NCBI RefSeq assembly: GCF_001579845.1
Contig: NZ_CP007440.1
Span: 1,492,001-1,556,000, forward strand
Reading direction: 5' to 3'
Length of the DNA stretch: 64,000 nucleotides
Origin: Rhodoplanes sp. Z2-YC6860
Lineage (GTDB): Bacteria; Pseudomonadota; Alphaproteobacteria; Rhizobiales; Xanthobacteraceae
Shown here: one piece after another, positions 4,298 to 24,843 of the stretch
Layout of the letters: every line of letters begins with the position of its first letter
How positions within the stretch are numbered: the stretch's first letter is position 1
The notes under the pieces: generated by a model
Seen by the model: only the letters and a program-made list of their open reading frames with translations
The model's database searches: none
Told to the model about the DNA's origin: nothing
Position numbers and translations under genes: made by a program

Positions 4298-4315
4298 TGT
4301 CCCGGTTTTCTTTGC

Positions 4316-8596: not shown

Positions 8597-8606
8597 TGCC
8601 AGTTGT

Positions 8607-8632
8607 GAGTTGTCTATGTTAATAGACAACTC
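8607..8632. promoter_or_regulatory. perfect palindrome, probable PhnF operator between phnG and phnF
   Basis: The site reads GAGTTGTCTAT, then GTTA, then ATAGACAACTC: two exact 11-bp inverted arms around a 4-bp centre. It is only 11 bp upstream of the phnG start and 35 bp upstream of phnF. GntR/HutC-type regulators bind such palindromes, and the inner TCTAT/ATAGA core resembles the known TATAGACC-type sites of mycobacterial PhnF. Assignment to PhnF is inference from position. Confidence 0.75.
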
Positions 8633-8666
8633 TCTAGCCGCTGTCGATGAAGTTTTCGTGACACCC

Positions 8667-9428: not shown

Positions 9429-9533
9429 GCCGTAAGTTGTCCGCGAAATCGCCGACAAGCAGTCGGCGTCGTCATCCCATCGTCATGGTCGCTCCGCACC
9501 ACGGAGCCGCCGCAGGAGGTCAGTAGCGCCGTC

Positions 9534-10175
9534 ATGGCTGGCAAAACGCTTTCACATGATCCGGTCATCGATCCGTCCGCGCAGCTCAAAGGCTGCACGC
9601 TCGGCCGCTACACCGAAGTTGGCCCGCGCACCAAGCTTCTCGAGGTGTCGATGTCCGACTACTCCTACGTGGTCAACGACAGCGACATCGCTTATTGCAG
9701 CATCGGCAAGTTCTGCTCGATCGCGGCGATGACCCGGATCAATCCGGGCAATCATCCGATGCAGCGGGCGAGCCAGTCGCATTTCACGTATCGGGCCAGC
9801 GCTTATTTTCCCGGCGAGGAAGACGAGCACGAATTCTTCGCCTGGCGGCGGGCGCATCATGTCGCGATCGGCAACGATGTGTGGATCGGCCATGGCGCGA
9901 TCGTGCTGGCCGGGCGCAGCATCGGCGATGGCGCGGTGATCGCGGGCGGCGCCGTCGTCACCAAGGACGTGCCGCCCTACACGATCGTCGGCGGCAACCC
10001 GGCGCGGCCGATTCGGCAGCGGTTTCCGGACCACATTGCCGCGCGGATGCGCGCGCTCGCCTGGTGGAACTGGCCGCACGAACAGCTTCACGCGGCGTTG
10101 GCCGACTTTCGCAAGCTTTCCGCCGAGGAATTCCTCGATCGCTATGAAGCATCCAGCCATTCGGCGGTTGCGTGA
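9534..10175 (+). CDS. phosphonate-locus transferase, hexapeptide-repeat (left-handed beta-helix) family
   Basis: The 213-residue protein contains the imperfect hexapeptide repeats of left-handed beta-helix acyltransferases ([58 protein letters not shown]) and the typical end [14 protein letters not shown]. It fits the xenobiotic/chloramphenicol-acetyltransferase-like subgroup seen recurrently in C-P lyase loci. Its substrate is unknown; with the GNAT at 5101-5568 the locus has two candidate acetyltransferases. It lies 105 bp after phnF and 21 bp before the second phnM. Confidence 0.85.
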
Positions 10176-10196
10176 ATGAAGGTCATGAGCTGAACC

Positions 10197-11354
10197 ATGG
10201 AAATGCGGATCACAGGCGCGAACGCGCTGCTCGATGATGGCTTCGAAGTGGCGCCTGTTCACGTTAGCCCGACAGACGGTGTGATTTCGGCTATCGGCTC
10301 GGATCGTGCGAACGGCCGGACCATCGAGGCTGACGGGCTTTATCTCCTTCCTGGCATCGTAGACATGCATGGCGACGCCTTCGAGCGGCAGATGATGCCG
10401 CGGCCCGGCGTCAACGTGGCGCTCGACGTGGCGCTGGCCGACAGCGACCGGCAGGCTGTCGCGAACGGCATCACCACGATCTTCCACGGCGTGACCTGGT
10501 CGTGGGAGCCGGGACTGCGCGGCTCGGAGAACGCCCGCGCCATTCTTGCCGGGATCGAAGCGCTGCAGCCGAAGCTTGCGGCGGACACGCGCTATCACCT
10601 GCGTCACGAGACCTTCAATCTCGACGCCGAAACCGAGGTGCTCGACTGGGTTGCGGCGCGCCGCGTCGGCGCGGTGGCGTTCAACGATCATCTGCCGTCG
10701 TCCGACAGCCTGGCCAAGCGGCCCGATAAGATCAATCAGATGGTCGAGCGCGCCGGCATTCCGCGCGAGGATTTTCTGGCGCTGGTGAAAAGGCTGCATG
10801 CGAGGCGCGAGGAGGTTCCGGTTTCGATCTCGCGCATCGCTGCGGAAGCGGGTTCCCATCGCGTGCCGCTTCTGTCGCATGACGACGCCAGTCCGGAGCA
10901 GCGCCAGTGGTTTCGCGGACTCGGCTGCCGGGTCAGCGAATTTCCGGTGAACATCGAAACCGCGACCGACGCGGCCAACGCCGGCGACGCCATCGTGCTC
11001 GGCGCGCCGAACGTGATGCGCGGCAAGAGCCACATGGGCTGGGTCAATGCCGCCGAAATGGTCGGACGCGGGCTCTGCTCGATCCTGGCGTCGGACTATT
11101 ACTATCCGGCGCAATTGATCGCGGCGTTCCGGCTGGCCGAGCAGGGCACAGCGCTGCTAGAGACGGCGTGGCGGCTCGTTTCGCAGACGCCGGCGAGGGC
11201 CATGGGCCTCGACGATCGCGGAACCATCGCCGCCGGCAAACGTGCCGATCTGATCCTGGTCGAGGCCGAGGCAAAAAGCCGCCCCCGCGTGGTGGCCGTG
11301 ATTGCGGCCGGCCGGATCGTCCATCTCACCGAGCCGGACCGCATCGTCCACTGA
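10197..11354 (+). CDS. phnM: PhnM-family diphosphatase, divergent second copy
   Basis: The 385-residue amidohydrolase-fold protein keeps PhnM landmarks: LLPGIVDMHGDAFER with the H-x-D metal motif, PRPGVNVALDVALADSDRQAVANGITT, VPLLSHDDASPEQRQW, IVLGAPNVMRGKSHMG, ILASDYYYPAQLIAA and AGKRADLI. Compared with copy 1 it lacks the SLMDHTPGQRQF block and has VAFNDHLPSSD in its place. It is probably also an alpha-D-ribose 1-methylphosphonate 5-triphosphate diphosphatase, but it could act on a related triphosphate. The two copies sit in opposite arms of the same locus. An inverted repeat (CTGCAGG, 8 nt, CCTGCAG, 11372-11393) follows the stop. Confidence 0.88.
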   Translation: MEMRITGANALLDDGFEVAPVHVSPTDGVISAIGSDRANGRTIEADGLYLLPGIVDMHGDAFERQMMPRPGVNVALDVALADSDRQAVANGITTIFHGVTWSWEPGLRGSENARAILAGIEALQPKLAADTRYHLRHETFNLDAETEVLDWVAARRVGAVAFNDHLPSSDSLAKRPDKINQMVERAGIPREDFLALVKRLHARREEVPVSISRIAAEAGSHRVPLLSHDDASPEQRQWFRGLGCRVSEFPVNIETATDAANAGDAIVLGAPNVMRGKSHMGWVNAAEMVGRGLCSILASDYYYPAQLIAAFRLAEQGTALLETAWRLVSQTPARAMGLDDRGTIAAGKRADLILVEAEAKSRPRVVAVIAAGRIVHLTEPDRIVH

Positions 11355-11446
11355 CGGCGTCGGTGTCGCCTCTGCAGGTCGTTGATCCTGCAGCGGGAAT
11401 TTCCTTGTTCGCGTTGTCTAGGGAAACGGCGACAGGCGCTCGGGGC

Positions 11447-11464
11447 ACTTCATCCGACTGTCAT
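11447..11464 (+). promoter_or_regulatory. Pho-box-like site upstream of phnC
   Basis: ACTTCAT-CCGA-CTGTCAT has two 7-bp units at the 11-bp spacing of PhoB sites; the second unit is the exact consensus and the first matches at TCAT. It ends 56 bp before the phnC GTG. One half is degenerate, so this is a candidate only. A further CTGTTAC unit follows at 11471-11477. Confidence 0.45.
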
Positions 11465-11520
11465 ACGCGGCTGTTACCTCCGATCTGCTGGGCCTCATCG
11501 CTCGCATATGGGAGTGCGCT

Positions 11521-12435
11521 GTGCCGGCTGAGCCTGTCGTTCAAGCACGACACATTTCGAAATCCTTCGGCCAGGTTCGGGTGTTGAACAGCGTCAGCTT
11601 CAGCATCGAACGCGGCGAGATGGTTGGACTGATCGGCGCCTCGGGCTCCGGCAAGTCCACCTTGATCCGCACCATCGCGGGACTGACGCCGATCGACCGC
11701 AACGCCAACGGCAGCAGCCCGGCGAACGGCGAAGTCCGGCTGTTCTCGCGCCCGATCCAGCAGCGGGGCCGCATCGCGCGCTCGGCCAATGCGCTGCGCG
11801 CCCGCGTCGGCGTGATCTTCCAGCAGTTCAATCTGGTGCCGCGGCTGTCGGTGCTGACCAATGTGTGTCTCGGCCGGCTCGGCCGCATGTCGTTCATCGA
11901 CGCCACGCTCGGCCGATTCTCGATGGACGAGAAGCGGCGTGCGATGCGCGCACTGTCGCGCGTCGGCATCGCCGAACATGCGCTCAAGCGCGGCAGCGAT
12001 CTCTCCGGCGGTCAGCAGCAGCGCGCCGCCATTGCCCGCACGCTGATGCAGGGCGCCGAGTTCATCGTCGCCGACGAGCCGATCGCCTCGCTCGATCCGA
12101 GCTCGGCGCGGCGCGTGATGGATATCCTCGCCGACCTCAACCGGCGCGACAACATCACGGTGCTGGTGTCGCTGCATCAGGTCGAATACGCGCTGCGCTA
12201 CTGCCCGCGCACGATCGCGCTCAAAGCCGGCGAGATCGTCTATGACGGGCCGTCGCGCGCGCTCACGCCGGAATTCCTGGCGGCGCTTTACGGCGCCGAA
12301 AGCGAGGACCTGTTCGCCTCGATCGACTCGCGGCCGCCAGAGACGGAAGTCCGCAAGCCTTCCGCGGAGTCGAGCCTGGTTCCGTTCGACCTGGCGCGAC
12401 GCGGGGCGGATCAGCGGCCTCATCTCAACGCCTGA
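11521..12435 (+). CDS. phnC: phosphonate ABC transporter ATP-binding protein PhnC
   Basis: The 304-residue ATPase starts at GTG 11521. It has Walker A GASGSGKST (39-47), Q-loop VGVIFQQFNLVPRLSVLTNV, signature LSGGQQQRAAIAR, Walker B FIVADEPIASLDP and the H-loop VSLHQVEYAL. The insertion between Walker A and Q-loop and the phrase VLTNVCLGRLGR are typical of PhnC/PtxA. It energises import through PhnE of ligands delivered by PhnD. The C-terminal 40 residues (polar, Pro/Glu-rich) extend beyond the usual ATPase domain. Confidence 0.93.
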   Translation: MPAEPVVQARHISKSFGQVRVLNSVSFSIERGEMVGLIGASGSGKSTLIRTIAGLTPIDRNANGSSPANGEVRLFSRPIQQRGRIARSANALRARVGVIFQQFNLVPRLSVLTNVCLGRLGRMSFIDATLGRFSMDEKRRAMRALSRVGIAEHALKRGSDLSGGQQQRAAIARTLMQGAEFIVADEPIASLDPSSARRVMDILADLNRRDNITVLVSLHQVEYALRYCPRTIALKAGEIVYDGPSRALTPEFLAALYGAESEDLFASIDSRPPETEVRKPSAESSLVPFDLARRGADQRPHLNA

Positions 12436-12493
12436 CCGTTCAGCGTCGGACCTTTCTCCACGATTCCGAAATTCTGCACACACAGGAGACATC

Positions 12494-13606
12494 ATGTCAT
12501 CGCACTTCAGGAAGGCCGCATTCGCGGCCGCGGTCCTCGCGGGCAGCACCATGTTCGCGCAAGCCGAGACGCCGACCGAACTCAATTTCGGCGTGATCTC
12601 CACCGAGGCGTCGATCAATCAGAAAAAGAACTGGGAGCCGTTCGTCGAGGCGCTCTCGAAAGCCATCGGCATCAAGGTCAAGGCGTTCTACGCCACCGAC
12701 TATGCCGGCGTGATCGAGGCGATGCGCTTCAACAAGGTGCATGTCGCCTGGTACGGCAACAAATCGGCGATCGAAGCGGTGGATCGCGCCGGCGGCGAGG
12801 TGTTCGCCCAGGTGGTGTCGAAGGACGGCAGCACCGGCTACTACTCCCACATCATCGTGCGCGCGGACAGCCCGTACACCAAGGTCGAAGACATCCTGAA
12901 GTGCGACAAGTCGCTGAACTTCGGCATCGGCGATCCGAACTCGACCTCGGGCTTCCTGGTGCCGACCTCCTACATTTTCGCGGCGAAGGACATCGATCCG
13001 AAGTCCTGCTTCAAGACCGTGCGCAACGCCAGCCATCAGGCCAATGCCATGGCGGTGGCCAACAAGCAGGTCGATGCCGCGACCAACAATAGCGAAGACC
13101 TGCAGCGCGTCGAGAAGACCGCACCCGAGGCGCGCAAGCAGATCAAGGTGATCTGGACCTCGCCGATCATTCCGCTCGATCCGCTGGTGTGGCGCAAGGA
13201 TCTCGATCCGGCGATCAAGACCAAGCTCTACACCTTCCTGATGAGCTACGGCCGGCTCGGCTCCGACGAGGAAATCAAGCAGGATCGCGAGGTCCTGGCG
13301 AATCTCGTCTGGTCGCCATTCCACCCGTCGTCGAACCGGCAGCTCATCGCGGTCCGCAAGCTCGAAGCCAACAAGGACCTGATGAAGGTTCAGGGCGACG
13401 ACAAGCTCTCCGCCGCCGAGAAGCAGGAGAAGGTCGGAAAGCTCAAGGCCGAACTCGCCAAGATCGAGCAGATGGAGAAGCAGGCCGAGACCGATCCGTA
13501 TCAGACAAAGGTCGCGGACTTCATCAAGGCCGAGGCCGCCGGCGACAAGGCGACCATGAAGAAGATGATCGCGGACTTCGCCGCGGGCTTCACCGGCACC
13601 AACTGA
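12494..13606 (+). CDS. phnD: phosphonate ABC transporter substrate-binding protein PhnD
   Basis: The 370-residue periplasmic binding protein starts at ATG 12494 with AGGAG 6 nt upstream. A signal peptide ends near FAQA (about residue 24). PhnD features include NFGVISTEASINQKKNWEPF, YATDYAGVIEAMRFNKVHVAWYGN, FGIGDPNSTSGFLVPT and VDAATNNSED, the ligand-binding Y/T/S region. The last 60-70 residues are Lys/Glu/Ala-rich and predicted helical, longer than in E. coli PhnD. A strong terminator hairpin follows before phnE, which may keep binding protein levels above those of the permease. Confidence 0.95.
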   Translation: MSSHFRKAAFAAAVLAGSTMFAQAETPTELNFGVISTEASINQKKNWEPFVEALSKAIGIKVKAFYATDYAGVIEAMRFNKVHVAWYGNKSAIEAVDRAGGEVFAQVVSKDGSTGYYSHIIVRADSPYTKVEDILKCDKSLNFGIGDPNSTSGFLVPTSYIFAAKDIDPKSCFKTVRNASHQANAMAVANKQVDAATNNSEDLQRVEKTAPEARKQIKVIWTSPIIPLDPLVWRKDLDPAIKTKLYTFLMSYGRLGSDEEIKQDREVLANLVWSPFHPSSNRQLIAVRKLEANKDLMKVQGDDKLSAAEKQEKVGKLKAELAKIEQMEKQAETDPYQTKVADFIKAEAAGDKATMKKMIADFAAGFTGTN

Positions 13607-13620
13607 TCGCGGAACAGCGA

Positions 13621-13652
13621 GCGCGCCGGGTGTATAGCCCGGCGCGCTTTTT
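13621..13652 (+). terminator. strong Rho-independent-type hairpin between phnD and phnE
   Basis: GCGCGCCGGG and CCCGGCGCGC form an exact 10-bp GC stem around a 7-nt loop, followed by five T residues. It lies 14 bp after phnD and 50 bp before phnE, inside the transport operon, so it likely causes partial termination. Confidence 0.8.
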
Positions 13653-13702
13653 GTTTGCGGCATTAAACCCAGTGCTCATGTGATGAAAACGGTGGTTCAC
13701 TG

Positions 13703-14557
13703 ATGACCGATATCAATGTGACGTCCGCCGTGACATCTCTTGGACGCTCGCCTGTGGCTGACCGCACCACCGAAAACGTCGACGTTCCCGCGCATTCACT
13801 GAGCCGCCGCTCGCGGACTTGGACGCTCTGGATCATCGTGGTCGGGCTTCTGGTCTGGAGCTGGAGCCCGGCCGAGATGTACCGGGCCGGTTCCCTGTTC
13901 ACCGACTGGCGCAACATGGCCGAGTTCGGCCAGGCGTTCCTGCGCCCCAACTTTCATGAATGGCGCGGCTATCTCGAAGACATGATTGTCACGGTGCAGA
14001 TCGCGATCTGGGGCACCGCGCTCGCCGCGGTGCTCGGAGCGCCGTTCGCGATTCTCGCTTCGTCCAACATCGCGCCGCAATGGGTGGTGCAGCCGGTCCG
14101 CCGGCTGATGGACTCCTGCCGCGCCATCAACGAGATCGTGTTTGCTTTGTTGTTCGTGGTCGCCGTGGGCCTGGGTCCGTTCGCCGGCGTGATGGCGCTG
14201 TTCGTCCACAACACCGGCGTGTTCGCCAAGCTTTATTCCGAGGCCGTCGAGGCCATCGATCCCCGCCCGGTCGAGGGCCTCCGCGCCACCGGCGCGCGGC
14301 GCATTCCGGAAATTGTGTTCGGCGTGATCCCACAGGTGATTCCGCTGTGGAGTTCGTTCATTCTTTATCGGCTGGAAACCAATGTGCGTTCCGCCACGAC
14401 GCTCGGCATCGTTGGCGCGGGCGGCATCGGCCAGACGCTCTACGAAAGCATCCGTTCGTTTCAGTATGGGGAAACCGCGGCGCAGTTGATCGTCGTCGTG
14501 GTCACAGTGGTCTTGATCGATCTGAGCAGCGCGAGGCTTCGCAAGGCGCTGGTCTGA
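13703..14557 (+). CDS. phnE: phosphonate ABC transporter permease PhnE
   Basis: The 284-residue inner-membrane protein has an N-terminal cytosolic tail, a first membrane segment ([14 protein letters not shown]) and a core of about five more ([42 protein letters not shown]; and the C-terminal [16 protein letters not shown]). The EAA coupling loop [22 protein letters not shown] contacts Phn[19 protein letters not shown] is the conserved PhnE/MetI-like motif. Only one permease gene is present, so it probably acts as a homodimer; many rhizobia have two phnE genes. Confidence 0.94.
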
Positions 14558-15610: not shown

Positions 15611-16576
15611 TCACTTTCGCATCGCCAGCAGGAACTCGCGGGTTGCCAGGGTGCAGATCGCAATGCAGAGCGGCAGCACGAAATACAGGCAACGGAAGAT
15701 CAGGAGCGACGCCAGCAGGTCCTCCTTGGCGAACTGCGGCATCGCTACCAGGATCGCGACCTCGAACACGCCCAGGCTGCCCGGCGCATGGCTGAGGAAG
15801 CCGAGGAGCACCGCGGTCACGAAGATCACCAGCACGGTGATGAAGTCGATCTCGGGCGTCGCAGGCAGCAGCGAGTAGATCGCAAGCCCGCCGACCGTGA
15901 GGTCGACGATGCCGATCGCGATCTGCACGGCGGTCAGCCGCGCATTGGGCAACGTGACCGACCAGCCGTTGCGGCCGATGGTGCGCGGCCGCGGCAGGAG
16001 CCACAGCACGTAGCCGGCGATGATCGCAAGACCTGCAACGCCGAGCGAGCGGTTGATCCATTCCGGCAGTCGATCGACCGCACTCGCGGCCTCCGGCTCG
16101 ACGATGAAGCACAGTGACAACACCACGATGTTGCCGAGCCAGAACGTGAGGCCGGTGACGAAGGCCATCTTGGCAACATCGATAACCGACAGACCCCACG
16201 CCGAGTAGATTCGCCAGCGCACGGCGCCCGCGGTGAATACCGTTGCGCCGAGATTGTGACCGATCGAATAGCTGGTGAAGCTTGCCAGCGCCGCGATCCG
16301 ATACGGCACCCCGCCGTGGCCGATCGTGTGCAGCGAGAAGAAGTCATAGAAAGTTAACGTGATGTAACAGCAGCCGATAAAAGCAGCGGCGAATGCGATC
16401 GCATGCGGCGGCTTGTTGCGGATGGCGTCGAAGACCTTCGGCAGGTCGATGTCGCGCAGCAGAAAGAACAGCACGACACCGGCCGCAACGACGATCAGAA
16501 GGCTGATGATGATGCCGATCTTGTGCCAGCCGCGTGTACGGCTGGACTGTGCGGGCAAGCTCGTCACGTCATGCAT
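15611..16576 (-). CDS. multi-pass membrane protein, LPG-synthase transmembrane-domain family (UPF0104/YbhN-like)
   Basis: The 321-residue protein starts at ATG 16576; the longer frame runs into the promoter region. It has about eight hydrophobic segments beginning with IGIIISLLIVVAAGVVLFFLL, and the conserved family stretch ASFTSYSIGHNLGATVFTAGAVRWRIY followed by FWLGNIVVLSL and GFLSHAPGSLGVFEVAIL. These match the flippase half of MprF, without the cytosolic lysyltransferase half. Members are thought to move or protect lipids, but no function is proven. It is divergent from a glycosyltransferase gene, which suggests a role in handling a glycolipid. Confidence 0.85.
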   Translation of the reverse strand: MHDVTSLPAQSSRTRGWHKIGIIISLLIVVAAGVVLFFLLRDIDLPKVFDAIRNKPPHAIAFAAAFIGCCYITLTFYDFFSLHTIGHGGVPYRIAALASFTSYSIGHNLGATVFTAGAVRWRIYSAWGLSVIDVAKMAFVTGLTFWLGNIVVLSLCFIVEPEAASAVDRLPEWINRSLGVAGLAIIAGYVLWLLPRPRTIGRNGWSVTLPNARLTAVQIAIGIVDLTVGGLAIYSLLPATPEIDFITVLVIFVTAVLLGFLSHAPGSLGVFEVAILVAMPQFAKEDLLASLLIFRCLYFVLPLCIAICTLATREFLLAMRK

Positions 16577-16638
16577 AGGCGTCTGCGATGAGCTTCTGAT
16601 TCGGTTGATGGGAATGCGCGGCAAAGTCCCATCGAACC

Positions 16639-16656
16639 GTAACAATCTTGTTACAG
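16639..16656. promoter_or_regulatory. palindromic, Pho-box-like site in the divergent promoter
   Basis: GTAACAA-TC-TTGTTAC is an exact 7-bp inverted repeat. Read on the minus strand the same bases give CTGTAAC-AAGA-TTGTTAC, two Pho-box-like units 11 bp apart (5/7 matches each). It lies 62 bp upstream of the membrane-protein gene. A second weak candidate, GCGTCAT-ATTA-CTGGGGC at 16700-16717, points towards the glycosyltransferase. Either a dedicated regulator or PhoB could use this region. Confidence 0.4.
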
Positions 16657-16788
16657 GGCGGGGGCCCGCGAAATACCGCAAAGCGCGGGGTACACGCCAG
16701 CGTCATATTACTGGGGCATGACGACGCGGCGACAAGCCCGCTGATTCGACAGTGGCGGGCCGCTGTCCACGGCCGAGAGAAAGGTCTC

Positions 16789-17841
16789 ATGCGCGTTCTC
16801 ATCGCGACTGATGCTTGGCATCCCCAGGTTAACGGTGTGGTTCGGACTTTGACCTCCCTGGCGCGGGCCGCCAAGGGGCTCGGAGTCGATATCGAATTCC
16901 TGTCTCCCGAAGGGTTTCCTTCGCTCCCGCTGCCGACCTACCCGGGTCTGCGGCTCGCTCTGCCGAGCCGCAGGCAGATTGCGGAACGGATCGGGCAGGT
17001 CAAGCCCGACGCCATACATATCGCGACCGAAGGCACGATCGGTCTTTGGACCCGCGCCTACTGCTTGCGGCATCGCGTGCCGTTCACCACGAGCTATACG
17101 ACGCGCTTCCCCGAATACATCTCGGCACGCTGGCCAATCCCCGAAAGCGCGGTCTATGCCGCGCTGCGGCGATTTCACGCGGCGGCCTCGGTCACAATGG
17201 TGGCAACGGCGTCGTTGCGTGCGGATCTCGCATCGCGCGGGTTCGCCAATCTCGGAATGTGGACCCGCGGCGTCGACACCGAATTGTTCCGGCCCAACCG
17301 CGCCATCGAGTTGCCGTTTCCGCGACCGATCTTCGCCTGTGTCGGCCGTGTTGCAGTTGAAAAGAATCTTGAAGCCTTCCTGTCGCTCGATCTGCCTGGC
17401 ACCAAGATGGTAATCGGCGACGGTCCGGCGCTGAATGTTCTCAAGAGCCGCTTCCCCAACGCAAAGTTCATGGGGCTGATCGAGAACGGAAAGCTCGCCG
17501 CGCATCTCGCGGCCGCCGATGTGTTTGTCTTTCCGAGTCTCACCGACACGTTCGGCGTCGTGCAGCTCGAGGCGCTTGCGAGCGGCGTGCCGATTGCGGC
17601 ATTCCCGGTGACCGGCCCGAAGGACGTCGTCGCCAACAACCCGATCGGCGCGCTGAACGAAGATCTGCGCGAGGCCTGCCTTGCCGCGCTGAACGTGTCC
17701 CGCGAGGCCTGCCGCAATTTCGCGCTCGGCTATTCGTGGGAAAACAGCGCCCGCCAGTTCATCGGCAATCTCCAAGACATCAACGCGGCGCGACGCGCGC
17801 GGGCCGCGCAAATCGGCGCCGCCGCTGCGGCGCATGGATAG
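16789..17841 (+). CDS. glycosyltransferase family 4, probable diacylglycerol/glycolipid glycosyltransferase
   Basis: The 350-residue protein starts at ATG 16789 with GAGAAAGG upstream. It shows the GT-B fold of family 4: N-terminal RVLIATDAWHPQVNGVVRTL (the MGVPA-like WHPQxNGV motif), TTRFPEYISARWPIP, the linker RGVDTELFRP, then FACVGRVAVEKNLEAFL and the E-x7-E-like nucleotide-sugar motif LTDTFGVVQLEAL. This subgroup includes the Agrobacterium GT4 enzyme making glucosyl- and glucuronosyl-diacylglycerol under phosphate limitation. The neighbouring pmtA, psd and plcP-like genes support a membrane-lipid substrate; the donor sugar is not predictable. Probably co-transcribed with pmtA 52 bp downstream. 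Confidence 0.85.
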   Translation: MRVLIATDAWHPQVNGVVRTLTSLARAAKGLGVDIEFLSPEGFPSLPLPTYPGLRLALPSRRQIAERIGQVKPDAIHIATEGTIGLWTRAYCLRHRVPFTTSYTTRFPEYISARWPIPESAVYAALRRFHAAASVTMVATASLRADLASRGFANLGMWTRGVDTELFRPNRAIELPFPRPIFACVGRVAVEKNLEAFLSLDLPGTKMVIGDGPALNVLKSRFPNAKFMGLIENGKLAAHLAAADVFVFPSLTDTFGVVQLEALASGVPIAAFPVTGPKDVVANNPIGALNEDLREACLAALNVSREACRNFALGYSWENSARQFIGNLQDINAARRARAAQIGAAAAAHG

Positions 17842-17893
17842 AGAACAGGACCAAACGGTCGTCTGCACTATGCTCAAGAAGGGGACTCAAGAC

Positions 17894-18622
17894 ATGACGG
17901 ACCTGACAGCCGGCGAGCTCGACAAGAGCACCGTGGAGAAGGCGTATGACCGGTGGGCACCGGTTTATGATCTGGTGTTCGGTGCTGTGTTTGATCGTGG
18001 CCGTCAGGCCGCCATCGAGGCGGCCGAGCGGATCGGCGGTCGCATTCTCGAAGTCGGCGTGGGCACCGGCATCTCGCTGTCGGACTATTCCGGCAAGCAC
18101 AAGATCTGCGGCGTCGACATTTCGGAAGGAATGTTGATGAAGGCCCAGGAGCGCGTGGCGGAGCTCAAGCTCAAGCACGTCGAAGGCCTTTGGGTCATGG
18201 ACGCCGAGCACCTGAATTTTCCGGACGCCTCGTTCGATGTGGTGATGGCGCAATACGTCATCACCACGGTGCCGAACCCCGAAGCGACGCTCACCGAGTT
18301 CTCTCGCGTGCTCAAGCCCGGCGGCGAAATCATCCTGTGCAGCCGGGTCGGCGCCGAAGCAGGGCTTCGCCGCACGCTCGAGAAGTGGTTCGCGCCTGCC
18401 GCCCGTAAGCTTGGCTGGCGCACCGAATTCTCCTTCGAGCGTTACACCAACTGGGCGAAGGCCACGCCCGGCATGCGCCTGGTCGAGCGCCGCGCCATGC
18501 CGCCGCTTGGGCACTTCTCGCTCATCCGTTTCGGCAAGGTCGCGGACGGCTCGGCGGGCAGCCAGGGCCAGACGGGAGCCAGCGCTTCCCCGCAAACGCC
18601 ATTGCGCCGGGCTGCGGGTTAA
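17894..18622 (+). CDS. pmtA: phosphatidylethanolamine N-methyltransferase PmtA
   Basis: The 242-residue class I SAM methyltransferase starts at ATG 17894 with AAGGGGA upstream. It matches the Rhodobacter/Bradyrhizobium PmtA type: VEKAYDRWAPVYDLVFGAVF, SAM motif I ILEVGVGTGI (51-60), acidic GVDIS, VMDAEHLNFPDASFDVVMAQ, RVLKPGGEIILCSRVGAEAG and the end MPPLGHFSLIRF. The enzyme methylates PE three times to phosphatidylcholine at the cytosolic membrane face. The last 20-25 residues are a low-complexity tail. The flanking glycosyltransferase and psd make a lipid head-group cluster. Confidence 0.9.
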   Translation: MTDLTAGELDKSTVEKAYDRWAPVYDLVFGAVFDRGRQAAIEAAERIGGRILEVGVGTGISLSDYSGKHKICGVDISEGMLMKAQERVAELKLKHVEGLWVMDAEHLNFPDASFDVVMAQYVITTVPNPEATLTEFSRVLKPGGEIILCSRVGAEAGLRRTLEKWFAPAARKLGWRTEFSFERYTNWAKATPGMRLVERRAMPPLGHFSLIRFGKVADGSAGSQGQTGASASPQTPLRRAAG

Positions 18623-18730
18623 TCGAACATTGCCGGACTTGCCGTCGCCGGCAACGAGCGACGGCCGTCTCTGTCATCAGGCGTTCACCGATTCGACATA
18701 TCAGGGCTGGATGCCCCTCAAGGAGACACC

Positions 18731-19396
18731 ATGAGCAGCTTCGCTGAAGCACTGAGAGTGCAGCGCTGGGATGACCACCGCTACTATCATCACAGCCGCA
18801 TCAACCAGAGCCTGCACCTGGTCAGCGCGCTCAGCTTCCTGTTCTCCTACGTGATGCTGCTCAAGGACCCGGCGATCGCCGCTTTGACCGGCTGGCTCGT
18901 CTCCATGACAACCCGGCAGGCTGGCCACTTCTTCTTCGAGCCGAAGACCTACGATCACTACAACAAGGCCACGCACGAGCACAAAGAAGAGATCAAGATC
19001 GGCTACAACCTGCAGCGCAAGGTCGTGCTGATGTCGATCTGGGCCCTGTCGCCGGTGGTGCTGTACATCGATCCGACTCTCTTCGGCCTGTTCGAGCCGC
19101 ACACCACCGTCATGGAATTCATCCGCCACACGGCGATCATGTGGCTTGCGCTCGGCGCCGGCGGTCTCATCTTCCGGACCGTCCATCTGTTCTTCCTCTA
19201 TGACGTGCAGACCGGCCTCGTCTGGGCGACCAAGATCCTCACCGACCCCTTCAACGATGTGAAGTGGTACCACAAGGCGCCGTACTACCTGTTCGTGAAG
19301 GGCCAGCTCATCGACCCGCACACCGACGAGCAGGAGGAAGAGGGCCACGATTGGTTCGAGGAAGAAGAGCGCGAAGAGGCCCCGCGCGCGAGCTGA
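18731..19396 (+). CDS. uncharacterised multi-pass membrane protein with His/Asp-rich N-terminus
   Basis: The 221-residue protein starts at ATG 18731 with an AAGGAGA ribosome site. The N-terminus has RWDDHRYYHHSRINQSLHL, then hydrophobic segments near LHLVSALSFLFSYVMLL, AALTGWLVSM, VVLMSIWALSPVVLYI and HTAIMWLALGAGGLIFRTVH. Conserved-looking polar motifs are RQAGHFFFEPKTYDHYN and THEHKE. The clustered H/D/E residues (DDH, YHH, GHFFFEP, HEHKE) recall di-iron membrane hydroxylases or desaturases, but the canonical H-x3-H/H-x2-HH spacing is not present. The C-terminus is very acidic. I do not recognise the family; the context suggests a lipid role. Confidence 0.75.
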   Translation: MSSFAEALRVQRWDDHRYYHHSRINQSLHLVSALSFLFSYVMLLKDPAIAALTGWLVSMTTRQAGHFFFEPKTYDHYNKATHEHKEEIKIGYNLQRKVVLMSIWALSPVVLYIDPTLFGLFEPHTTVMEFIRHTAIMWLALGAGGLIFRTVHLFFLYDVQTGLVWATKILTDPFNDVKWYHKAPYYLFVKGQLIDPHTDEQEEEGHDWFEEEEREEAPRAS

Positions 19397-19450
19397 CGCT
19401 CGCGATTGCGCCCAATTCATTCGCACCCAAATTAGTCCTTGAAATGTCTG

Positions 19451-19563
19451 CCCTGGGTCCCCGCTTTCGCGGGGACGAACGGAGCAAGGGGACGCGGGGC
19501 AGCTGCCAAGGACAAGGGCACAGCTCTATCCCCGTTCGTCCCCGCGAAAGCGGGGAGCCAGGG
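19451..19563. repeat. pair of inverted intergenic palindromes
   Basis: CCCCGCTTTCGCGGGGACGAACGG occurs at 19459-19482 in one direction and its reverse complement at about 19530-19556, each flanked by a CCTGG/CCAGG extension. Each copy is itself a hairpin (CCCCGC-TTTC-GCGGGG). This type of repeat is common between genes in Bradyrhizobium relatives, and here it separates two convergent genes and may end transcription both ways. Confidence 0.7.
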
Positions 19564-19599
19564 AAACGATCGCAACTCTTGCTGATATATCGAGCGCTA

Positions 19600-21279
19600 T
19601 TACCGATGATCGCGCAACGCCGACAGCCGCTGCGCGATCATTTCTTTCAGGATGCGGCGCTTCACGGTTTTGTCGGTGGAAGCCGGATCGCACCACCACC
19701 AGCCGTCGGCCTGCATGGCCTTGGCTGCCGCGACGAAGCGGTCGGAGACCGCGGCGAAATCTTCGTCGGTATAGTTCAGCGTGAAGATCAGACGTCCGGT
19801 GCCGATCCAGCTCAGGGCCAGGCCCTCGGCGCGCATGTAGTATTGCAGCATCCAATTGTAGCGCGATGGGCAGGTGTAATAGACCAGCCAGACCGTCGAC
19901 AGGTTCGCCACGCGCACCGGAACGCCTTCGGCCTCGAAGCGGGCGTTGAGCGCGTCGGCGCGGCCGTTCCAGAGGCCGTCGAGATCGCGATAGAGCGCGA
20001 CGACCTCGGGCTTCTCGATGTGGCGCAGGAATTCGTCCATGGCGCACATGACGGCGGGATGCGAATTGAAGGTGCCGCGGGCAAGGCAGATGTCGGCAGG
20101 CCGGTCATCGCGGAAGCGCTTCATCAGGTCGCGCCGGCCGCAGATGACGCCGATCGGGAAGCCGCCGCCGACTGTCTTGCCGTAGGTGACGAGGTCGGCC
20201 TTTACGCCGAAATATTCCTGTGCACCGCCGAGCGCCAGCCGGAAGCCGAGGAACACTTCGTCGAAGATCAGCACGATGTTGCGCTCGGTGCAGACCGCGC
20301 GAAGCTCCTTCAGCCAGGCCGTGTAGGCGGCCTTGTCGAAATTCGCCCAGCGGCCGCCGTCGACCAGCGAGGTGTCGGCCGGCGCCGAGCCGTTCGGATG
20401 AAGCGCCTGCAGCGGGTTGACCAGCACACAGGCGATGTCGCGGCGCGTGCGCAGCACATGCAGCGCCTGCTCGGACATGTCGTTGAGCGTGTAGGTCTCG
20501 TGCGCCGGCACCGGGTTGCCGACGCCGGGCTGCACGTCGCCCCACCAGCCGTGATAGGCACCACAAAAACGAACCAGATGCGAGCGGCGGGTGTGGTAGC
20601 GAGCCAGCCGTACCGCCTGCATCACGGCCTCGGTGCCGGACATGTGGAACGACACTTCGTCGAGCCCGGAGATCTTCTTCAGGCGGCGGACGTTGTCGGC
20701 AATAACAGGATGGTAGGGCCCGAGCACCAGTCCAACATCGTGGGCCTGCTCGAGGCCGCGCCGCATCGCGCCTTTGTAGAAGTCGGTGCCGAGAAGATTG
20801 ACGCCGTAGGAGCCGGTCAGGTCGTAGAAACGGTTGCCATCGAGATCGGTGACGGTGACGCCTTCGGAGGACTGCACGAAGGTGCCGACGCGAAGGTGCT
20901 CCCGGACGTAACGGCTGTACTGGTAGGGCACCCGGTAGGCTTCGGTGAACTGCACGTCGGAGATGCTGTCGGCGACAGCCGCCGTGCTTGCAATGCTCTT
21001 CGGGTAGCGCGTCTCGTAAAGCGCGGCGAGCCGCGCGAAACCGTCGCGGCGGCGCGCCACGACGTCGGCCGGCGCATCGTCGGAGCAGAAGAACTGGTCA
21101 GGCCCGTATTCGTAGAACGGCACCGCCGCTGCGATCCGGCGCGACATCCGGGCGTGGCCGGCGAGCGAGCGATGCTTGGCCTTGGAGAGTTCGAGCCGCT
21201 GTTTCAGCTTGACCAGCGAGGTCGCAAGAGCCGTGACCCCGAGCCCGTAGAAAGCGAGTGCCGTGCCGCCCAGATCCAT
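19600..21279 (-). CDS. membrane-anchored class III PLP-dependent aminotransferase
   Basis: The 559-residue protein starts with a hydrophobic helix (TALAFYGLGVTALATSLVKL, about 6-25) and a basic stretch, then an extra 80-residue region before the class III aminotransferase fold. PLP landmarks are SGTEAVMQAVRLAR (214-), FCGAYHGWWGD, IFDEVFLGFR with D340, and the Schiff-base lysine K368 in LVTYGKTVGGGFPIG. This is closest to glutamate-1-semialdehyde aminomutase-like proteins, but the N-terminal anchor and extension are not seen in hemL. The gene is divergent from psd with only 35 bp between them. A role in making or changing an amino-bearing lipid head group is inference. Confidence 0.85.
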   Translation of the reverse strand: MDLGGTALAFYGLGVTALATSLVKLKQRLELSKAKHRSLAGHARMSRRIAAAVPFYEYGPDQFFCSDDAPADVVARRRDGFARLAALYETRYPKSIASTAAVADSISDVQFTEAYRVPYQYSRYVREHLRVGTFVQSSEGVTVTDLDGNRFYDLTGSYGVNLLGTDFYKGAMRRGLEQAHDVGLVLGPYHPVIADNVRRLKKISGLDEVSFHMSGTEAVMQAVRLARYHTRRSHLVRFCGAYHGWWGDVQPGVGNPVPAHETYTLNDMSEQALHVLRTRRDIACVLVNPLQALHPNGSAPADTSLVDGGRWANFDKAAYTAWLKELRAVCTERNIVLIFDEVFLGFRLALGGAQEYFGVKADLVTYGKTVGGGFPIGVICGRRDLMKRFRDDRPADICLARGTFNSHPAVMCAMDEFLRHIEKPEVVALYRDLDGLWNGRADALNARFEAEGVPVRVANLSTVWLVYYTCPSRYNWMLQYYMRAEGLALSWIGTGRLIFTLNYTDEDFAAVSDRFVAAAKAMQADGWWWCDPASTDKTVKRRILKEMIAQRLSALRDHR

Positions 21280-21314
21280 GGAAGCACCGTTTAGACCGGA
21301 GATTTAACGAATCC

Positions 21315-22181
21315 ATGACGCCGCAAACCCAATGGCTGCGTGTGTTTGAGCAGGAAGACGTCAACTTCCTCCTGACGAATCGCATCCCGCGCAGGCTCAC
21401 GACCCAGCTTCTGGGCTGGTTCAGCAAGATCGAGCAGCCCCTTGTCCGGGATCTTTCGATCGGCCTGTGGCGAACGTTTTCGGGCCTCGACCTTTCAGAG
21501 GCCAAGAAAACCGAGTTCCGGAGTATGCATGACTGCTTCATCCGGGAGCTCAAGGATGGGGCGCGGCCGTTTGCGGCGGATCCGCAGATCTTCGCCAGCC
21601 CCTGCGATGCCATTGTCGGCGCCTGCGGCACCATCGCCGGCAAGGAACTCCATCAGATCAAGGGCTTTCCCTACACGCTCGACGATCTTCTCTGCGATCC
21701 GGCGCTGGTCGAGACTCATCGCAACGGCACCTACGTGACGCTGCGGCTGACATCGAGCATGTATCACCGCTTCCACGCGCCCCATGACTGTCACGTCGAG
21801 GAGGTGCGCTACATCTCCGGCGACACCTGGAACGTGAACCCGATTGCGCTCAAGCGCGTGGAAAAGCTGTTCTGCAAGAACGAGCGCGCGGTCATCAAAA
21901 CCACGCTGGCCGCGGGCGGTCACCGCGTCACCCTGGTGCCGGTGGCCGCGATTCTCGTGGCCTGCATCCGGCTGCATTTCATCGACGTGCTGCTGAATCT
22001 CCGCCACCCGGGACCCAACGTGATCCCGTGCGATGCCACGTTGCGGAAGGGCCAGGAGATGGGCTGGTTCGAACACGGCTCGACCATCATCGTGTTCGCG
22101 CCGGGCGAGTTCAGGCTTGCCGACGGCATCGCGGAGGGCGCGACGATCCGCGCCGGCGAGCCGCTGATGCGGCTGCCGTAG
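21315..22181 (+). CDS. psd: phosphatidylserine decarboxylase proenzyme
   Basis: The 288-residue protein matches the short bacterial/eukaryotic type Psd: RDLSIGLWRTFSGLDLSEAK, FIRELKDGARPF, SPCDAIVGACG (Asp98), MYHRFHAPHDCHVEEVRYISGD (His154) and the self-cleavage site FEHGSTIIVFAPGEF. The usual LGST site reads HGST here, with Ser256 as the residue that becomes the pyruvoyl group. The enzyme makes phosphatidylethanolamine, the substrate of the PmtA encoded 3 kb upstream. No pssA gene is in the window. Start ATG 21315 is used; the longer frame overlaps the divergent aminotransferase gene. Confidence 0.9.
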   Translation: MTPQTQWLRVFEQEDVNFLLTNRIPRRLTTQLLGWFSKIEQPLVRDLSIGLWRTFSGLDLSEAKKTEFRSMHDCFIRELKDGARPFAADPQIFASPCDAIVGACGTIAGKELHQIKGFPYTLDDLLCDPALVETHRNGTYVTLRLTSSMYHRFHAPHDCHVEEVRYISGDTWNVNPIALKRVEKLFCKNERAVIKTTLAAGGHRVTLVPVAAILVACIRLHFIDVLLNLRHPGPNVIPCDATLRKGQEMGWFEHGSTIIVFAPGEFRLADGIAEGATIRAGEPLMRLP

Positions 22182-22229
22182 CGCATGTCCCGGAAAAGTG
22201 GATTCCGGTTTTCCGAAAAGGACATGCGC
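22181..22229. repeat. GCGCATGTCC palindromic intergenic repeat
   Basis: GCGCATGTCC at 22181-22190 pairs exactly with GGACATGCGC at 22220-22229, with nested CGGAAAA/TTTTCCG arms. This element is widespread in intergenic DNA of Bradyrhizobium-like genomes. It lies between the convergent psd and DUF1045 genes and overlaps the last base of psd. Confidence 0.75.
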
Positions 22230-22245
22230 CACCAAATAACGACTA

Positions 22246-22962
22246 TCAGTGGACTTCGTGAACGCCCCGGAGCGCCGCGGTGCTGAGCACCCGGAACGGC
22301 GAAGCTTGAGTGTCCTGCTTGGTCAGCGCCAGGCGATCGATCGCGATGGAGCCCGTGCGCATCCGCTGGAACAGGTCGCGAAGCACAGCGACGGCTGACT
22401 CGCGCCGTCCGACCTCGATCTTGCCGGTCAAGGTCATGTGAAAGCGGAAGTCGGCAAACAGGTATGGATAGCCCCAGCGGTCGAGGTTGGAGATCTGACT
22501 GGGATTGAGACCCGAGGCCAGCCGGCGGGCGCGTTCCTGTGCGGTCATCGGCGCGCGGAAGGCGTCGAAGATCGTGGTGCAGTCGGCCGCAAGCGCGTTG
22601 AGTACAGGGTTCGGTTGCTCCGGAACGATGGCGGCAAAGCCGCTCAGCATGGTCACGACCGGCTGGATGGTGGCGATGGTCCGGCCAATCGCCGCGAAGC
22701 TCTGAAAGGCGCTGACCAGTTGAGCCTCACCGCAGGTGGGCGCAAGATAGAATGGCGCCTTCAGCGTGGCGTGAAAGCCGTAGCGCCGCGGCTCTTCTGT
22801 GGCTTTCCGCCATTCGTCGGGCTGATCCCGGAATTGGGCGGGTGGGAAGATCGCGGTCCCGGTGTAGCAGTCGTATTGCAGGACGGTGCTGCCAAACCGG
22901 TACAGTTCGGAATCCGCCGCGGGCACGAAATAAACGGCGTATCGCGGCTCGGAATCGGTCAT
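22246..22962 (-). CDS. DUF1045 phosphonate-associated protein, 2H-phosphoesterase-like
   Basis: The 238-residue protein belongs to the DUF1045 family whose phosphonate subgroup is found near C-P lyase genes: RYAVYFVPAADSELYRFG, YDCYTG, RRYGFHATLKAPF and DFRFHMTLTGKI. The two H-x-T motifs (H64-A-T66 and H175-M-T177) are the signature of 2H phosphoesterases, which open cyclic phosphodiesters. The C-P lyase product is a ribose 1,2-cyclic phosphate that PhnP opens in E. coli, and no phnP is visible here. DUF1045 is therefore a candidate for that step (inference). It sits 8 kb from phnE, beside phoU. Confidence 0.85.
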   Translation of the reverse strand: MTDSEPRYAVYFVPAADSELYRFGSTVLQYDCYTGTAIFPPAQFRDQPDEWRKATEEPRRYGFHATLKAPFYLAPTCGEAQLVSAFQSFAAIGRTIATIQPVVTMLSGFAAIVPEQPNPVLNALAADCTTIFDAFRAPMTAQERARRLASGLNPSQISNLDRWGYPYLFADFRFHMTLTGKIEVGRRESAVAVLRDLFQRMRTGSIAIDRLALTKQDTQASPFRVLSTAALRGVHEVH

Positions 22963-23032
22963 CGATATTCTTTACGCTTTCGACTGCAGTTTTGGAACCG
23001 CAGCCGCGAGCGCTCGCAACGAGCCCGATCGG

Positions 23033-23764
23033 TCAGTGCGCGGCGGCCAGCATGAACCGCATCAAGCTGGTCGAGTCAGCTTTCGGACGTTCGTCCGGCA
23101 GCGTGCGTCCCTCGACCATGTAATACACGGACTCCGCGATGTTGGTGGCGTGATCGCCGACCCGCTCGATGTTCTTGGCGCAGAAAACCAGATGGACGCC
23201 GGACGCGACCGTGCCGGGGTCTTCCATCATGTAGGTCAGTAGCTCGCGGAACAGCGAGGTGTACATCAGGTCGACGTCGTTATCGCGGCTGCGCACCGAG
23301 GCGGCCTTGCTGCTGTCGCCGCCGGCGAAGCTGTCCAGTGCGTCGGTGAGCAGGCTGATCGCGAGGCTCATGATGTGATTGAGCCCGCGGCGTGCCTGGC
23401 GCGGCACGTCGTCCTGGCTGAGCGCCGAGACGCGCTTGGCGATGTTCTTGGCGAGATCGCCGATCCGCTCCAGGTCGCTGGAGATGCGCAGTACGGCCAC
23501 CACCTCGCGCAAGTCGACCGCCATCGGCTGGCGAGTCGCGATGGTGGCGATCGCCTTGTGCTCGATGTTGTGCTGAAGCGTATCGAGCATCACGTCGCCG
23601 AGCACGACCTTCTGGCCCTGCTCCTTGTCGTTGTTGATCAGCGAGTCGATCGCGGAGAGCAGCTGCTTTTCCACATGACCGCCCATCTCGGCGACCATGC
23701 ACTTGAGTTCCTGCAAGTCGAAGTCAAATGCCTTGGTGGTATGCTCGCTCGCTGCCAACGACAT
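23033..23764 (-). CDS. phoU: phosphate signalling complex protein PhoU
   Basis: The 243-residue protein has the two three-helix PhoU domains with metal motifs: LRISSDLERIGDLAKNIAKRV in the first half and VFCAKNIERVGDHATNIAESVYYMVEG in the second. It starts at ATG 23764 with GAGGGA upstream; the longer frame is rejected. PhoU restrains PhoR/PhoB signalling when phosphate is ample, normally with the Pst transporter. Here it is not next to pstSCAB or phoB. A well-formed Pho box lies 170 bp upstream, so it probably has its own PhoB-driven promoter. Confidence 0.94.
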   Translation of the reverse strand: MSLAASEHTTKAFDFDLQELKCMVAEMGGHVEKQLLSAIDSLINNDKEQGQKVVLGDVMLDTLQHNIEHKAIATIATRQPMAVDLREVVAVLRISSDLERIGDLAKNIAKRVSALSQDDVPRQARRGLNHIMSLAISLLTDALDSFAGGDSSKAASVRSRDNDVDLMYTSLFRELLTYMMEDPGTVASGVHLVFCAKNIERVGDHATNIAESVYYMVEGRTLPDERPKADSTSLMRFMLAAAH

Positions 23765-23933
23765 GATCAGTCCCTCGCCACGCTTTGTGCTCGCGTGGCT
23801 GACGTGAGATTCCGGTGTGAGCAAGAAATGCTTTTCGCTTGTCCGGCGTGTTTCGCTTCTTGGCGGACATGATCGCAACGGACCAAGCGCTGAGTATCGT
23901 TACTGCACCGAATCAACAAGATAGATCGAGTCG

Positions 23934-23951
23934 ATGTCAGGCAGATGACAG
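23934..23951 (-). promoter_or_regulatory. Pho box upstream of phoU
   Basis: On the minus strand the site reads CTGTCAT-CTGC-CTGACAT: 7/7 and 6/7 matches to the CTGTCAT unit at the exact 11-bp spacing. It lies between the plcP-like stop and the phoU start and points to phoU. This is the best Pho box in the window. Confidence 0.72.
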
Positions 23952-23982
23952 CAACCATCCCGGATGCCGTCGCCCACAGGTG

Positions 23983-24843
23983 TCAGACGGGCTCGACGCT
24001 CCGCTTGGAGTCCGTTCGCGCGTCCTGCATCTCGGCGGGCGCGGCAGCGGCCGGCACCGGCAGCTTGTTGGTCCATTCGATGATTTCAAATTGTCCATCG
24101 AAATGCTCGACAGCCGCGGTGCAGCTTTCCACCCAGTCGCCGCAGTTCACATAGACGAGGCCGTCGATGTCGCGGATGACGGGGTGATGGATGTGCCCGC
24201 AGACCACGCCGTCGACATGCTGGCGGCGGCCTTCGGCGGCGAGCGTCTTCTCGAACTCGCCGATGAAATTGACGGCGTTCTTGACCTTGAGCTTGATCCA
24301 GCGCGACAGCGACCAGTAGGGCAGGCCGAGCAGGCGCCGGATGGAGTTGAAATAGGTGTTGAGCGAGATCGCCAGGTCGTAGGCGTGGTTGCCAAGCAGC
24401 GCGAGCCAGCGCGCGTTGCGGATCACCACGTCGAACAGGTCGCCGTGGATGATCAGGAAGCGCCGGCCGTCGGCCGTGACGTGGATGGTGTGTTCCATCA
24501 CTTCGATGCCACCGAAGTGCGTGCCATAGAAGTTCCGCATGACCTCGTCGTGGTTGCCCGGCACATAGACGACGCGGGCGCCTTTGCGCGCCTTGCGCAG
24601 GATCTTCTGCACGACGTCGTTATGCGACTGCGGCCAGTACCAGCCGGTCTTGAGCTGCCAGCCATCGACAATGTCGCCGACCAGATAGATCAGATCGGCG
24701 TCGTAGTCGCGAAGGAAGTCGAGGAATTTTTCGGCTTGGCAGCCGCGGGTGCCAAGGTGGATGTCCGAGATGAACAGGGTGCGGACCCGGATCGGAGCAT
24801 CCTCGCCGTTGGCTTCGAACGGATGACTGGTTTGAACGTTCAT
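23983..24843 (-). CDS. plcP: calcineurin-like metallophosphoesterase, PlcP-like phospholipase C
   Basis: The 286-residue protein has all di-metal motifs of the family: SDIHLG (D27, H29), GDIVDGW (D57), GNHDE (97-100), IIHGDLFD (H133) and CGHIHHP (H217, H219). It resembles LpxH-type enzymes by motif, but the 280-300-residue size, the GWQLKTGWYWPQSHNDVVQKILR segment and the phosphate-stress context fit PlcP, which in Sinorhizobium meliloti removes head groups from PC and PE under phosphate limitation so that diacylglycerol can be glycosylated. A GT4 gene for that second step lies at 16789. LpxH-like activity is the alternative. A Pho-box-like site lies about 300 bp upstream. Confidence 0.82.
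   Translation of the reverse strand: MNVQTSHPFEANGEDAPIRVRTLFISDIHLGTRGCQAEKFLDFLRDYDADLIYLVGDIVDGWQLKTGWYWPQSHNDVVQKILRKARKGARVVYVPGNHDEVMRNFYGTHFGGIEVMEHTIHVTADGRRFLIIHGDLFDVVIRNARWLALLGNHAYDLAISLNTYFNSIRRLLGLPYWSLSRWIKLKVKNAVNFIGEFEKTLAAEGRRQHVDGVVCGHIHHPVIRDIDGLVYVNCGDWVESCTAAVEHFDGQFEIIEWTNKLPVPAAAAPAEMQDARTDSKRSVEPV

Follow-up and report, generated by a model that had tools for sequence, protein, structure and literature searches.

A 64,000-nucleotide stretch of the Rhodoplanes sp. Z2-YC6860 genome (positions 1492001–1556000 of one 8.19 Mb contig, NZ_CP007440.1; hereafter, the window) contains three genes that form a conserved unit: one encoding an Mpo1-like multi-helix membrane protein (MPO), one a class III aminotransferase dependent on pyridoxal phosphate (PLP; the enzyme hereafter AT) and one a pyruvoyl-type enzyme that resembles phosphatidylserine decarboxylase (PSD). 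That the three genes are linked, physically as well as phyletically, is close to certain. This cassette probably makes an undescribed membrane lipid and likely has a role in lipid remodelling under phosphate starvation. We assign a probability of about 60% to the reading that MPO, AT and the PSD-like enzyme constitute one membrane-associated pathway that is induced by PhoB at low phosphate and makes a remodelling aminolipid; the chemistry that we describe for the cassette is a proposal.

Conservation of the three-gene unit

We placed the window proteins, at ≥45% identity, on 80 named loci that represent the best 80 of at least 587 MPO relatives confirmed in a scan of genome contigs (loci and genomes are given L and G numbers). 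MPO, AT and PSD occurred together at 75 of the 80 loci, in a single order and orientation in all 75, and at the remaining five the contig ends inside AT. Among 31 further loci, 30 had the three genes within approximately 6.4 kb and the 31st had a PSD match at 39% identity. PSD was likewise nearby at every one of 56 loci that had been chosen for MPO or AT. Six gammaproteobacterial loci display one co-directional row, in the order AT, a glycosyltransferase family 4 (GT4) fusion, PSD and MPO.

Co-occurrence was analysed in 398 genomes of the window's phylum (thresholds of E ≤ 1e-15 for MPO and E ≤ 1e-80 for AT). MPO and AT were each detected in 25 genomes (own genome counted each time), with both in 24 and neither in 372. 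There were two exceptions, G490 and G358, one of them with MPO only and the other with AT only, and in each the contig breaks off a short way from the gene. This co-occurrence and the synteny at 75/80 loci rule out a chance neighbourhood. The preliminary description had made conservation past this strain a point to be checked, and the cassette indeed recurs in many proteobacteria. By order, AT was present in 21/200 genomes (order of G431), 6/78 (order of G255) and 3/99 (order of G357). In a sample of the window's own family, an AT orthologue of ≥65% identity was found in 17/100 genomes (own included), and the next best match was at 34%.

Several individual loci deserve mention. A 385 kb plasmid of Sphingomonas parapaucimobilis carries the cassette and a methyltransferase (L230:8081-12173); no other of the 72,556 plasmids scanned matched AT at E ≤ 1e-80. 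Its PSD-like and Mpo1-like proteins are 58% and 59% identical to those of the window, and its RefSeq-derived annotation lists the PSD-like protein as archaetidylserine decarboxylase, AT as an aminotransferase class III-fold enzyme and MPO as a hypothetical protein. G561, from the window's family, has a second Mpo1-like gene (49% identical) that adjoins a different class III aminotransferase (L172:9529-10140 and 10438-11628), with no PSD match in the 19 kb of sequence covered there. Two loci (L029 and L065) are labelled Bordetella parapertussis; the isolate names look environmental, so the taxon label may be wrong.

Features of the core proteins

To describe the PSD-like enzyme, we compared 101 module copies using the residue numbers of E. 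coli PSD, in which Y137 and S166 are phosphate/carboxyl contacts and D142 occupies position 142. The module copies instead have Arg at 137 (101/101), Met at 142 (100/101), Trp at 165 (100/101) and Asn at 166 (100/101). H144 (101/101) and D90 (100/101) are kept, as is the pyruvoyl-forming GST motif (S275 and T276 ≥98% conserved in 114 copies). Of 11 non-module copies that were fetched, the eight of the long type (L219–L226) keep Tyr, Asp and Ser. L227 and L228, second copies from small gammaproteobacterial genomes of the f81 family, have Arg at 137 and keep D142 and S166; Arg137 alone is therefore not diagnostic, and the two proteins are possibly another PSD subtype. The short-type copy of the window's own genome (L229) has F, N and D at the sites and aligns too poorly to count. 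All 50 genomes tested that carry the cassette (carriers) had at least two PF02666 matches, although one of those in G328 is a fragment scoring just 22 bits. Judged by these residues, the module PSD copies form a subfamily of their own in which the head-group site is altered, and their substrate is probably not phosphatidylserine, given the extra copy and the replacement of the residues that contact phosphate and carboxyl groups.

AT retains K368 (the PLP lysine), D340, H243 and R347, each ≥98% conserved in 127 copies. Its nearest solved relative is the AMT domain of MycA, both by sequence (6kfm, E 1e-48) and by fold (TM scores of 0.68/0.83), with GSAM enzymes close behind on both measures. The fold, the PLP lysine and neighbouring motifs are shared with these relatives; in contrast to them, AT carries approximately 75–100 extra N-terminal residues relative to the aligned PDB chains, including a long helix, and scores 168.3 bits with the HemL model, below the cut-off of 527.3. 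The AlphaFold2 (AF2) model of AT has a mean pLDDT of 81.5 that is low across the first 20 residues. Given that 68 of the 127 orthologues exceed a simple hydropathy threshold in the N-terminal helix, this helix is probably a membrane anchor, though not proven for every orthologue. AT-like domains (31–34% identity) were also seen in frames of 2425–2986 aa from relatives (L110–L113), possibly AMT domains borne by polyketide synthases or nonribosomal peptide synthetases.

MPO had previously been described as an uncharacterised membrane protein; it probably does belong to a family, the Mpo1-like PF06127, which was matched at E ≤ 0.01 by 25/25 aligned orthologues. The window copy scored 19.5 bits (cut-off 24) and the gammaproteobacterial orthologue of L166 24.7 bits. 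Yeast Mpo1, a 2-hydroxy fatty acid dioxygenase, belongs to PF06127, and its likeness to MPO lies in a profile match over residues 15–71 and in conserved histidines. As differences from yeast Mpo1, the match of MPO is near the threshold, and MPO has approximately 220 aa with further helices past the match and forms its own, extremely conserved family, with H16, H20, H29, H66 and E70 conserved and invariant histidines. The AF2 model of MPO has a mean pLDDT of 77.8.

Neighbouring genes and Pho-box-like sites

For the survey of neighbours, open reading frames (ORFs) of ≥100 aa were clustered from the 56 loci, which bear 28 lineage labels. MPO and AT are present by construction, as the loci were chosen for one or the other, and the 28 labels are not fully independent because single named loci may belong to a family under another label. 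GT4 was near the core in 22/28 lineages and a PlcP-like gene in 10/28 (18/56 loci); 42 of the 50 carriers encode PlcP somewhere in the genome. Within 6 kb of MPO at the 80 named loci, we found GT4 of any type at 76 (70 at ≥60% identity), a PmtA/UbiE-like methyltransferase (PMT) at 72, the flippase at 10, PlcP at 8 and PhoU at 6. The flippase, PhoU and C-P lyase are neighbours in some lineages but not part of the core. GT4 types differ, with 30% identity between the window and L176. Other neighbours were LplT (5/28 lineages; 510.9 bits in L176 against an equivalog cut-off of 297), a DUF1045-type protein (4 lineages) and PhnD, PhoU, PstS and UDP-glucose dehydrogenase (3/28 each; PstS models were matched in L206 and L216). 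BtaA adjoins the core in L029 and lies at most approximately 8 kb from AT in G783 and G679, and OlsF adjoins the core in L167 and L169 (841 and 816 bits; cut-off 620).

PMT was found near the core only in alphaproteobacterial labels. A PMT-like gene was present in 24/24 alphaproteobacterial carriers tested and in 0/6 other carriers, and 21 of the 24 (the exceptions being three f56 genomes) carry another PMT-like gene at a different place in the genome. The window protein scored 150.7 bits with the PmtA model NF045882, below the cut-off of 390, and 0/30 genomes exceeded that cut-off. The presence of PMT-like genes in alphaproteobacterial carriers and their absence from the others parallel the distribution of phosphatidylcholine (PC). 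A view of Psd and PmtA as plain housekeeping enzymes does not fit these second copies, the further PSD match in 50/50 carriers or the altered PSD site.

The gammaproteobacterial GT4 fusions are approximately 890–960 aa long and share an N-terminal part of approximately 540 aa with a DxHCHDxNS motif (6/6). This part had no match in Pfam or NCBIfam (L166), none in Pfam (L171) and no PDB match at E ≤ 1 (L166). As the six fusion genomes are without a PlcP match, the N-terminal part may stand in for PlcP.

We searched for Pho-box-like sites with what we take to be the Pho-box consensus, scored at 14 positions. At ≥12/14 matches, 105 sites were found in 2.07 Mb, of which 85 lie before module or adjoining genes, phoU included. 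In a tighter region, a site was present in 52/55 Bradyrhizobium-type, 6/16 Xanthobacteraceae-type (window included) and 5/42 other loci; among 100 permuted motifs, the highest counts were 14, 3 and 4, respectively, each below the observed one. The Bradyrhizobium loci are close relatives and do not count as independent. Measured in this way, the signal is strong in Bradyrhizobium-type loci and thin elsewhere. The window has six sites with ≤3 mismatches in 64 kb against 3.15 expected, a number reached by 9/100 shuffles, and its gap between AT and PSD, at approximately 35 bases, leaves little room for a site placed there as in Bradyrhizobium.

Gene calls in the window were based on ORFs and on scans with family models (Pfam and NCBIfam) against curated cut-offs, and the PSD and flippase starts were counted from ORF translations. 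From left to right, the order is C-P lyase/phosphonate transport, a short-chain dehydrogenase/reductase, the MprF flippase half, GT4, PMT, MPO, AT, PSD, DUF1045, PhoU and the PlcP-like gene. ORFs and family matches confirm that the PlcP-like, GT4, PmtA-like, PSD, flippase, PhoU and C-P lyase genes first named here are real. Models for PhnL, PhnK, PhnH, PhnG, PhnC and PhnE and one PhnM-type subfamily model exceeded their cut-offs in the phosphonate cluster; ORFs at the phnJ/phnI position had no NCBIfam match at E ≤ 1e-20. The DUF1045 protein falls slightly below the cut-off of the phosphonate-operon model TIGR03223 (248.95). The PlcP-like protein is not LpxH by the LpxH model (48 bits; cut-off 134), and it is presumably PlcP, a name that we give it from context. 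PlcP and GT4 are both in the window, approximately 6 kb apart and not adjacent.

Table 1. Features of the window and of the gammaproteobacterial GT4 fusion loci (window positions unless a locus is given)
Feature	Position	Strand	Remarks
MPO (core gene), multi-helix membrane protein, Mpo1-like (PF06127)	18731..19396	+	family matches, synteny
AT, class III (GSAM/AMT-like) PLP aminotransferase, core gene	19600..21279	-	family match, conserved residues, co-occurrence
PSD-like pyruvoyl-type decarboxylase, core gene	21315..22181	+	ORF 21258-22181, likely ATG 21315
GT4 glycosyltransferase, Agt-like by context only	16789..17841	+	ORF 16648-17841, likely ATG 16789
PMT, PmtA/UbiE-like methyltransferase, alphaproteobacterial accessory	17834..18622	+	
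PlcP-like metallophosphoesterase, phospholipase C candidate	23983..24843	-	
PhoU	23033..23878	-	228.6 bits, cut-off 130.25
MprF N-terminal (flippase) half-like protein	15611..16576	-	ORF 15611-16681, likely ATG 16576
DUF1045 protein, local neighbour	22246..22962	-	PF06299 matched; TIGR03223 234.1 bits
C-P lyase and phosphonate transport cluster	3587..14557		phnL, phnK, phnH, phnG, phnM-type, phnC, phnE identified
Pho-box-like site before phoU	23934..23951	-	13/14 consensus positions
Weak Pho-box-like site before MPO	18671..18688	+	11/14; could be chance
GT4 fusion	L166:2344-5025		
GT4 fusion	L167:9349-12174		
GT4 fusion	L168:7374-10109		
GT4 fusion	L169:3674-6355		
GT4 fusion	L170:2719-5385		
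GT4 fusion	L171:7607-10483		

Proposed pathway and alternatives

The simplest account of the cassette is a phosphate-starvation aminolipid pathway, given the likeness of PSD and PMT to the route from phosphatidylethanolamine (PE) to PC, and the presence of PlcP, GT4 and Pho-box-like sites. PlcP, or the N-terminal part of the gammaproteobacterial GT4 fusion, would supply diacylglycerol. An iron/O2 step by MPO and transamination by AT, whose order we leave unspecified, would then install an alpha-amino-acid head, which the PSD-like enzyme would decarboxylate to a primary amine. Methylation of that amine in alphaproteobacteria would fall to the PmtA-like enzyme, mirroring the PE-to-PC route, and GT4 would make a companion glycolipid. 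More tentatively, and with some doubt on our part, the head would be other than phosphoserine and the product an undescribed phosphorus-free counterpart of PE, converted by the PmtA-like enzyme to a PC-like lipid in alphaproteobacteria, by a route of transamination and decarboxylation that differs from BtaAB and Ols.

Lipid remodelling by PlcP and Agt under phosphate limitation has been described in Phaeobacter MED193 and SAR11 (PMC4796936) and in Methylosinus OB3b (PMC9239053). The cassette resembles these systems in having PlcP and GT4 in one neighbourhood, Pho-box-like sites and, beside some copies, btaA, and the earlier link to phosphate-limitation remodelling holds on the strength of PlcP, GT4 and Pho-box-like sites near the core. 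It differs in that AT, the PSD-like enzyme and MPO are constant whereas PlcP and GT4 vary. In the main texts of PMC4796936 and PMC9239053, the words 'aminotransferase' and 'decarboxylase' occur 0 times; judged by these main texts, the membrane protein and the aminotransferase do lie outside the known versions, as originally proposed. No description of the cassette was found in the accessible portions of open-licence literature, including PMC7952604, PMC10667739, PMC9239053 and PMC4796936, which does not imply absence elsewhere.

Several observations count against the phosphate-starvation aminolipid pathway. GT4 was not found near the core in 6/28 lineages (two of them on contigs cut at MPO) nor PlcP in 18/28, and 8/50 carriers, including all six tested GT4-fusion carriers, had no PlcP match in the genome. 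Mpo1-like chemistry would be transferred from a family match near its threshold, and the AF2 model of MPO had no PDB fold match at E ≤ 0.001. As for regulation, only 6/16 Xanthobacteraceae-type loci have a site, in four of them (window included) before phoU; in the 42 other loci, 10/15 sites lie away from module genes and a permuted motif reached 4; and in the window itself the core genes have at best an 11/14 site (MPO), the strong site lying before phoU.

One alternative is that the genes serve the upkeep of PE and PC under phosphate stress, with the PSD-like enzyme acting on phosphatidylserine, PMT methylating PE, and AT and MPO performing separate acyl-chain or aldehyde chemistry. The two enzyme families of the PE-to-PC route do lie close together here, the PSD-like enzyme retains D90, H144 and the GST motif, and LplT and a Hydrolase_4 alpha/beta hydrolase adjoin some copies, which fits phospholipid turnover. 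However, most carriers have further copies of these enzymes elsewhere (for PF02666 all 50, counting the weak fragment of G328), the changes at the E. coli phosphate/carboxyl contact positions are near-invariant, and this reading gives no reason why the gene should be bound so strictly to AT and MPO; we consider this alternative unlikely. Somewhat more improbable is an acyl-chain route, in which AT aminates a keto-acyl chain, MPO alpha-oxidises 2-hydroxy acyl chains and an alpha-amino acyl group is the substrate that the PSD-like enzyme decarboxylates, to yield an amine- or amino-acyl lipid. The chemistry of the Mpo1 family and the relationship of AT to the MycA AMT domain, the nearest in sequence and fold, favour such a route, but amination by MycA takes place at the beta position, which does not prepare a substrate for pyruvoyl decarboxylation, and GSAM enzymes score close behind.

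The class III fold includes ethanolamine-phosphate phospho-lyase, and AT might accordingly degrade amine head groups released by PlcP, as part of phosphorus or nitrogen salvage. C-P lyase genes in the window, PhnD in three lineages and DUF1045-type neighbours in four agree with this; nevertheless, PhnD is nearby in just 3/28 lineages, AT probably has a membrane anchor, and a decarboxylase with a membrane Mpo1-like protein suits lipid biosynthesis better, which makes salvage very improbable. We give slightly less credence still to an amino-glycolipid, in which AT and the other enzymes would act on the sugar head that GT4 produces. GT4 is near the core in most lineages and lies within the gammaproteobacterial row, and UDP-glucose dehydrogenase is near in three lineages, but no GT4 was found nearby in six lineages, the GT4 types differ, and a PSD-type enzyme requires an alpha-amino acid.

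Three other candidates were rejected. A head derived from diacylglyceryltrimethylhomoserine (DGTS), with the PSD-like enzyme acting on diacylglyceryl-homoserine, was attractive because BtaA adjoins some copies; BtaA is present in just 5/50 carriers, and the window's own genome has no match. For amination of the serinol/RtxA type, nothing ties it to the AT family. The aminolipids of serpentinite water (PMC10667739) have no link to the cassette genes in the portion of that source available.

The PSD and PmtA homologues of the cassette are easily read as enzymes of PE and PC synthesis. If the cassette makes a different lipid, models of the low-phosphate membrane of Bradyrhizobium, Methylobacterium and fellow carriers would be missing a component, and an aminolipid biosynthetic logic would exist besides those of BtaAB and Ols.

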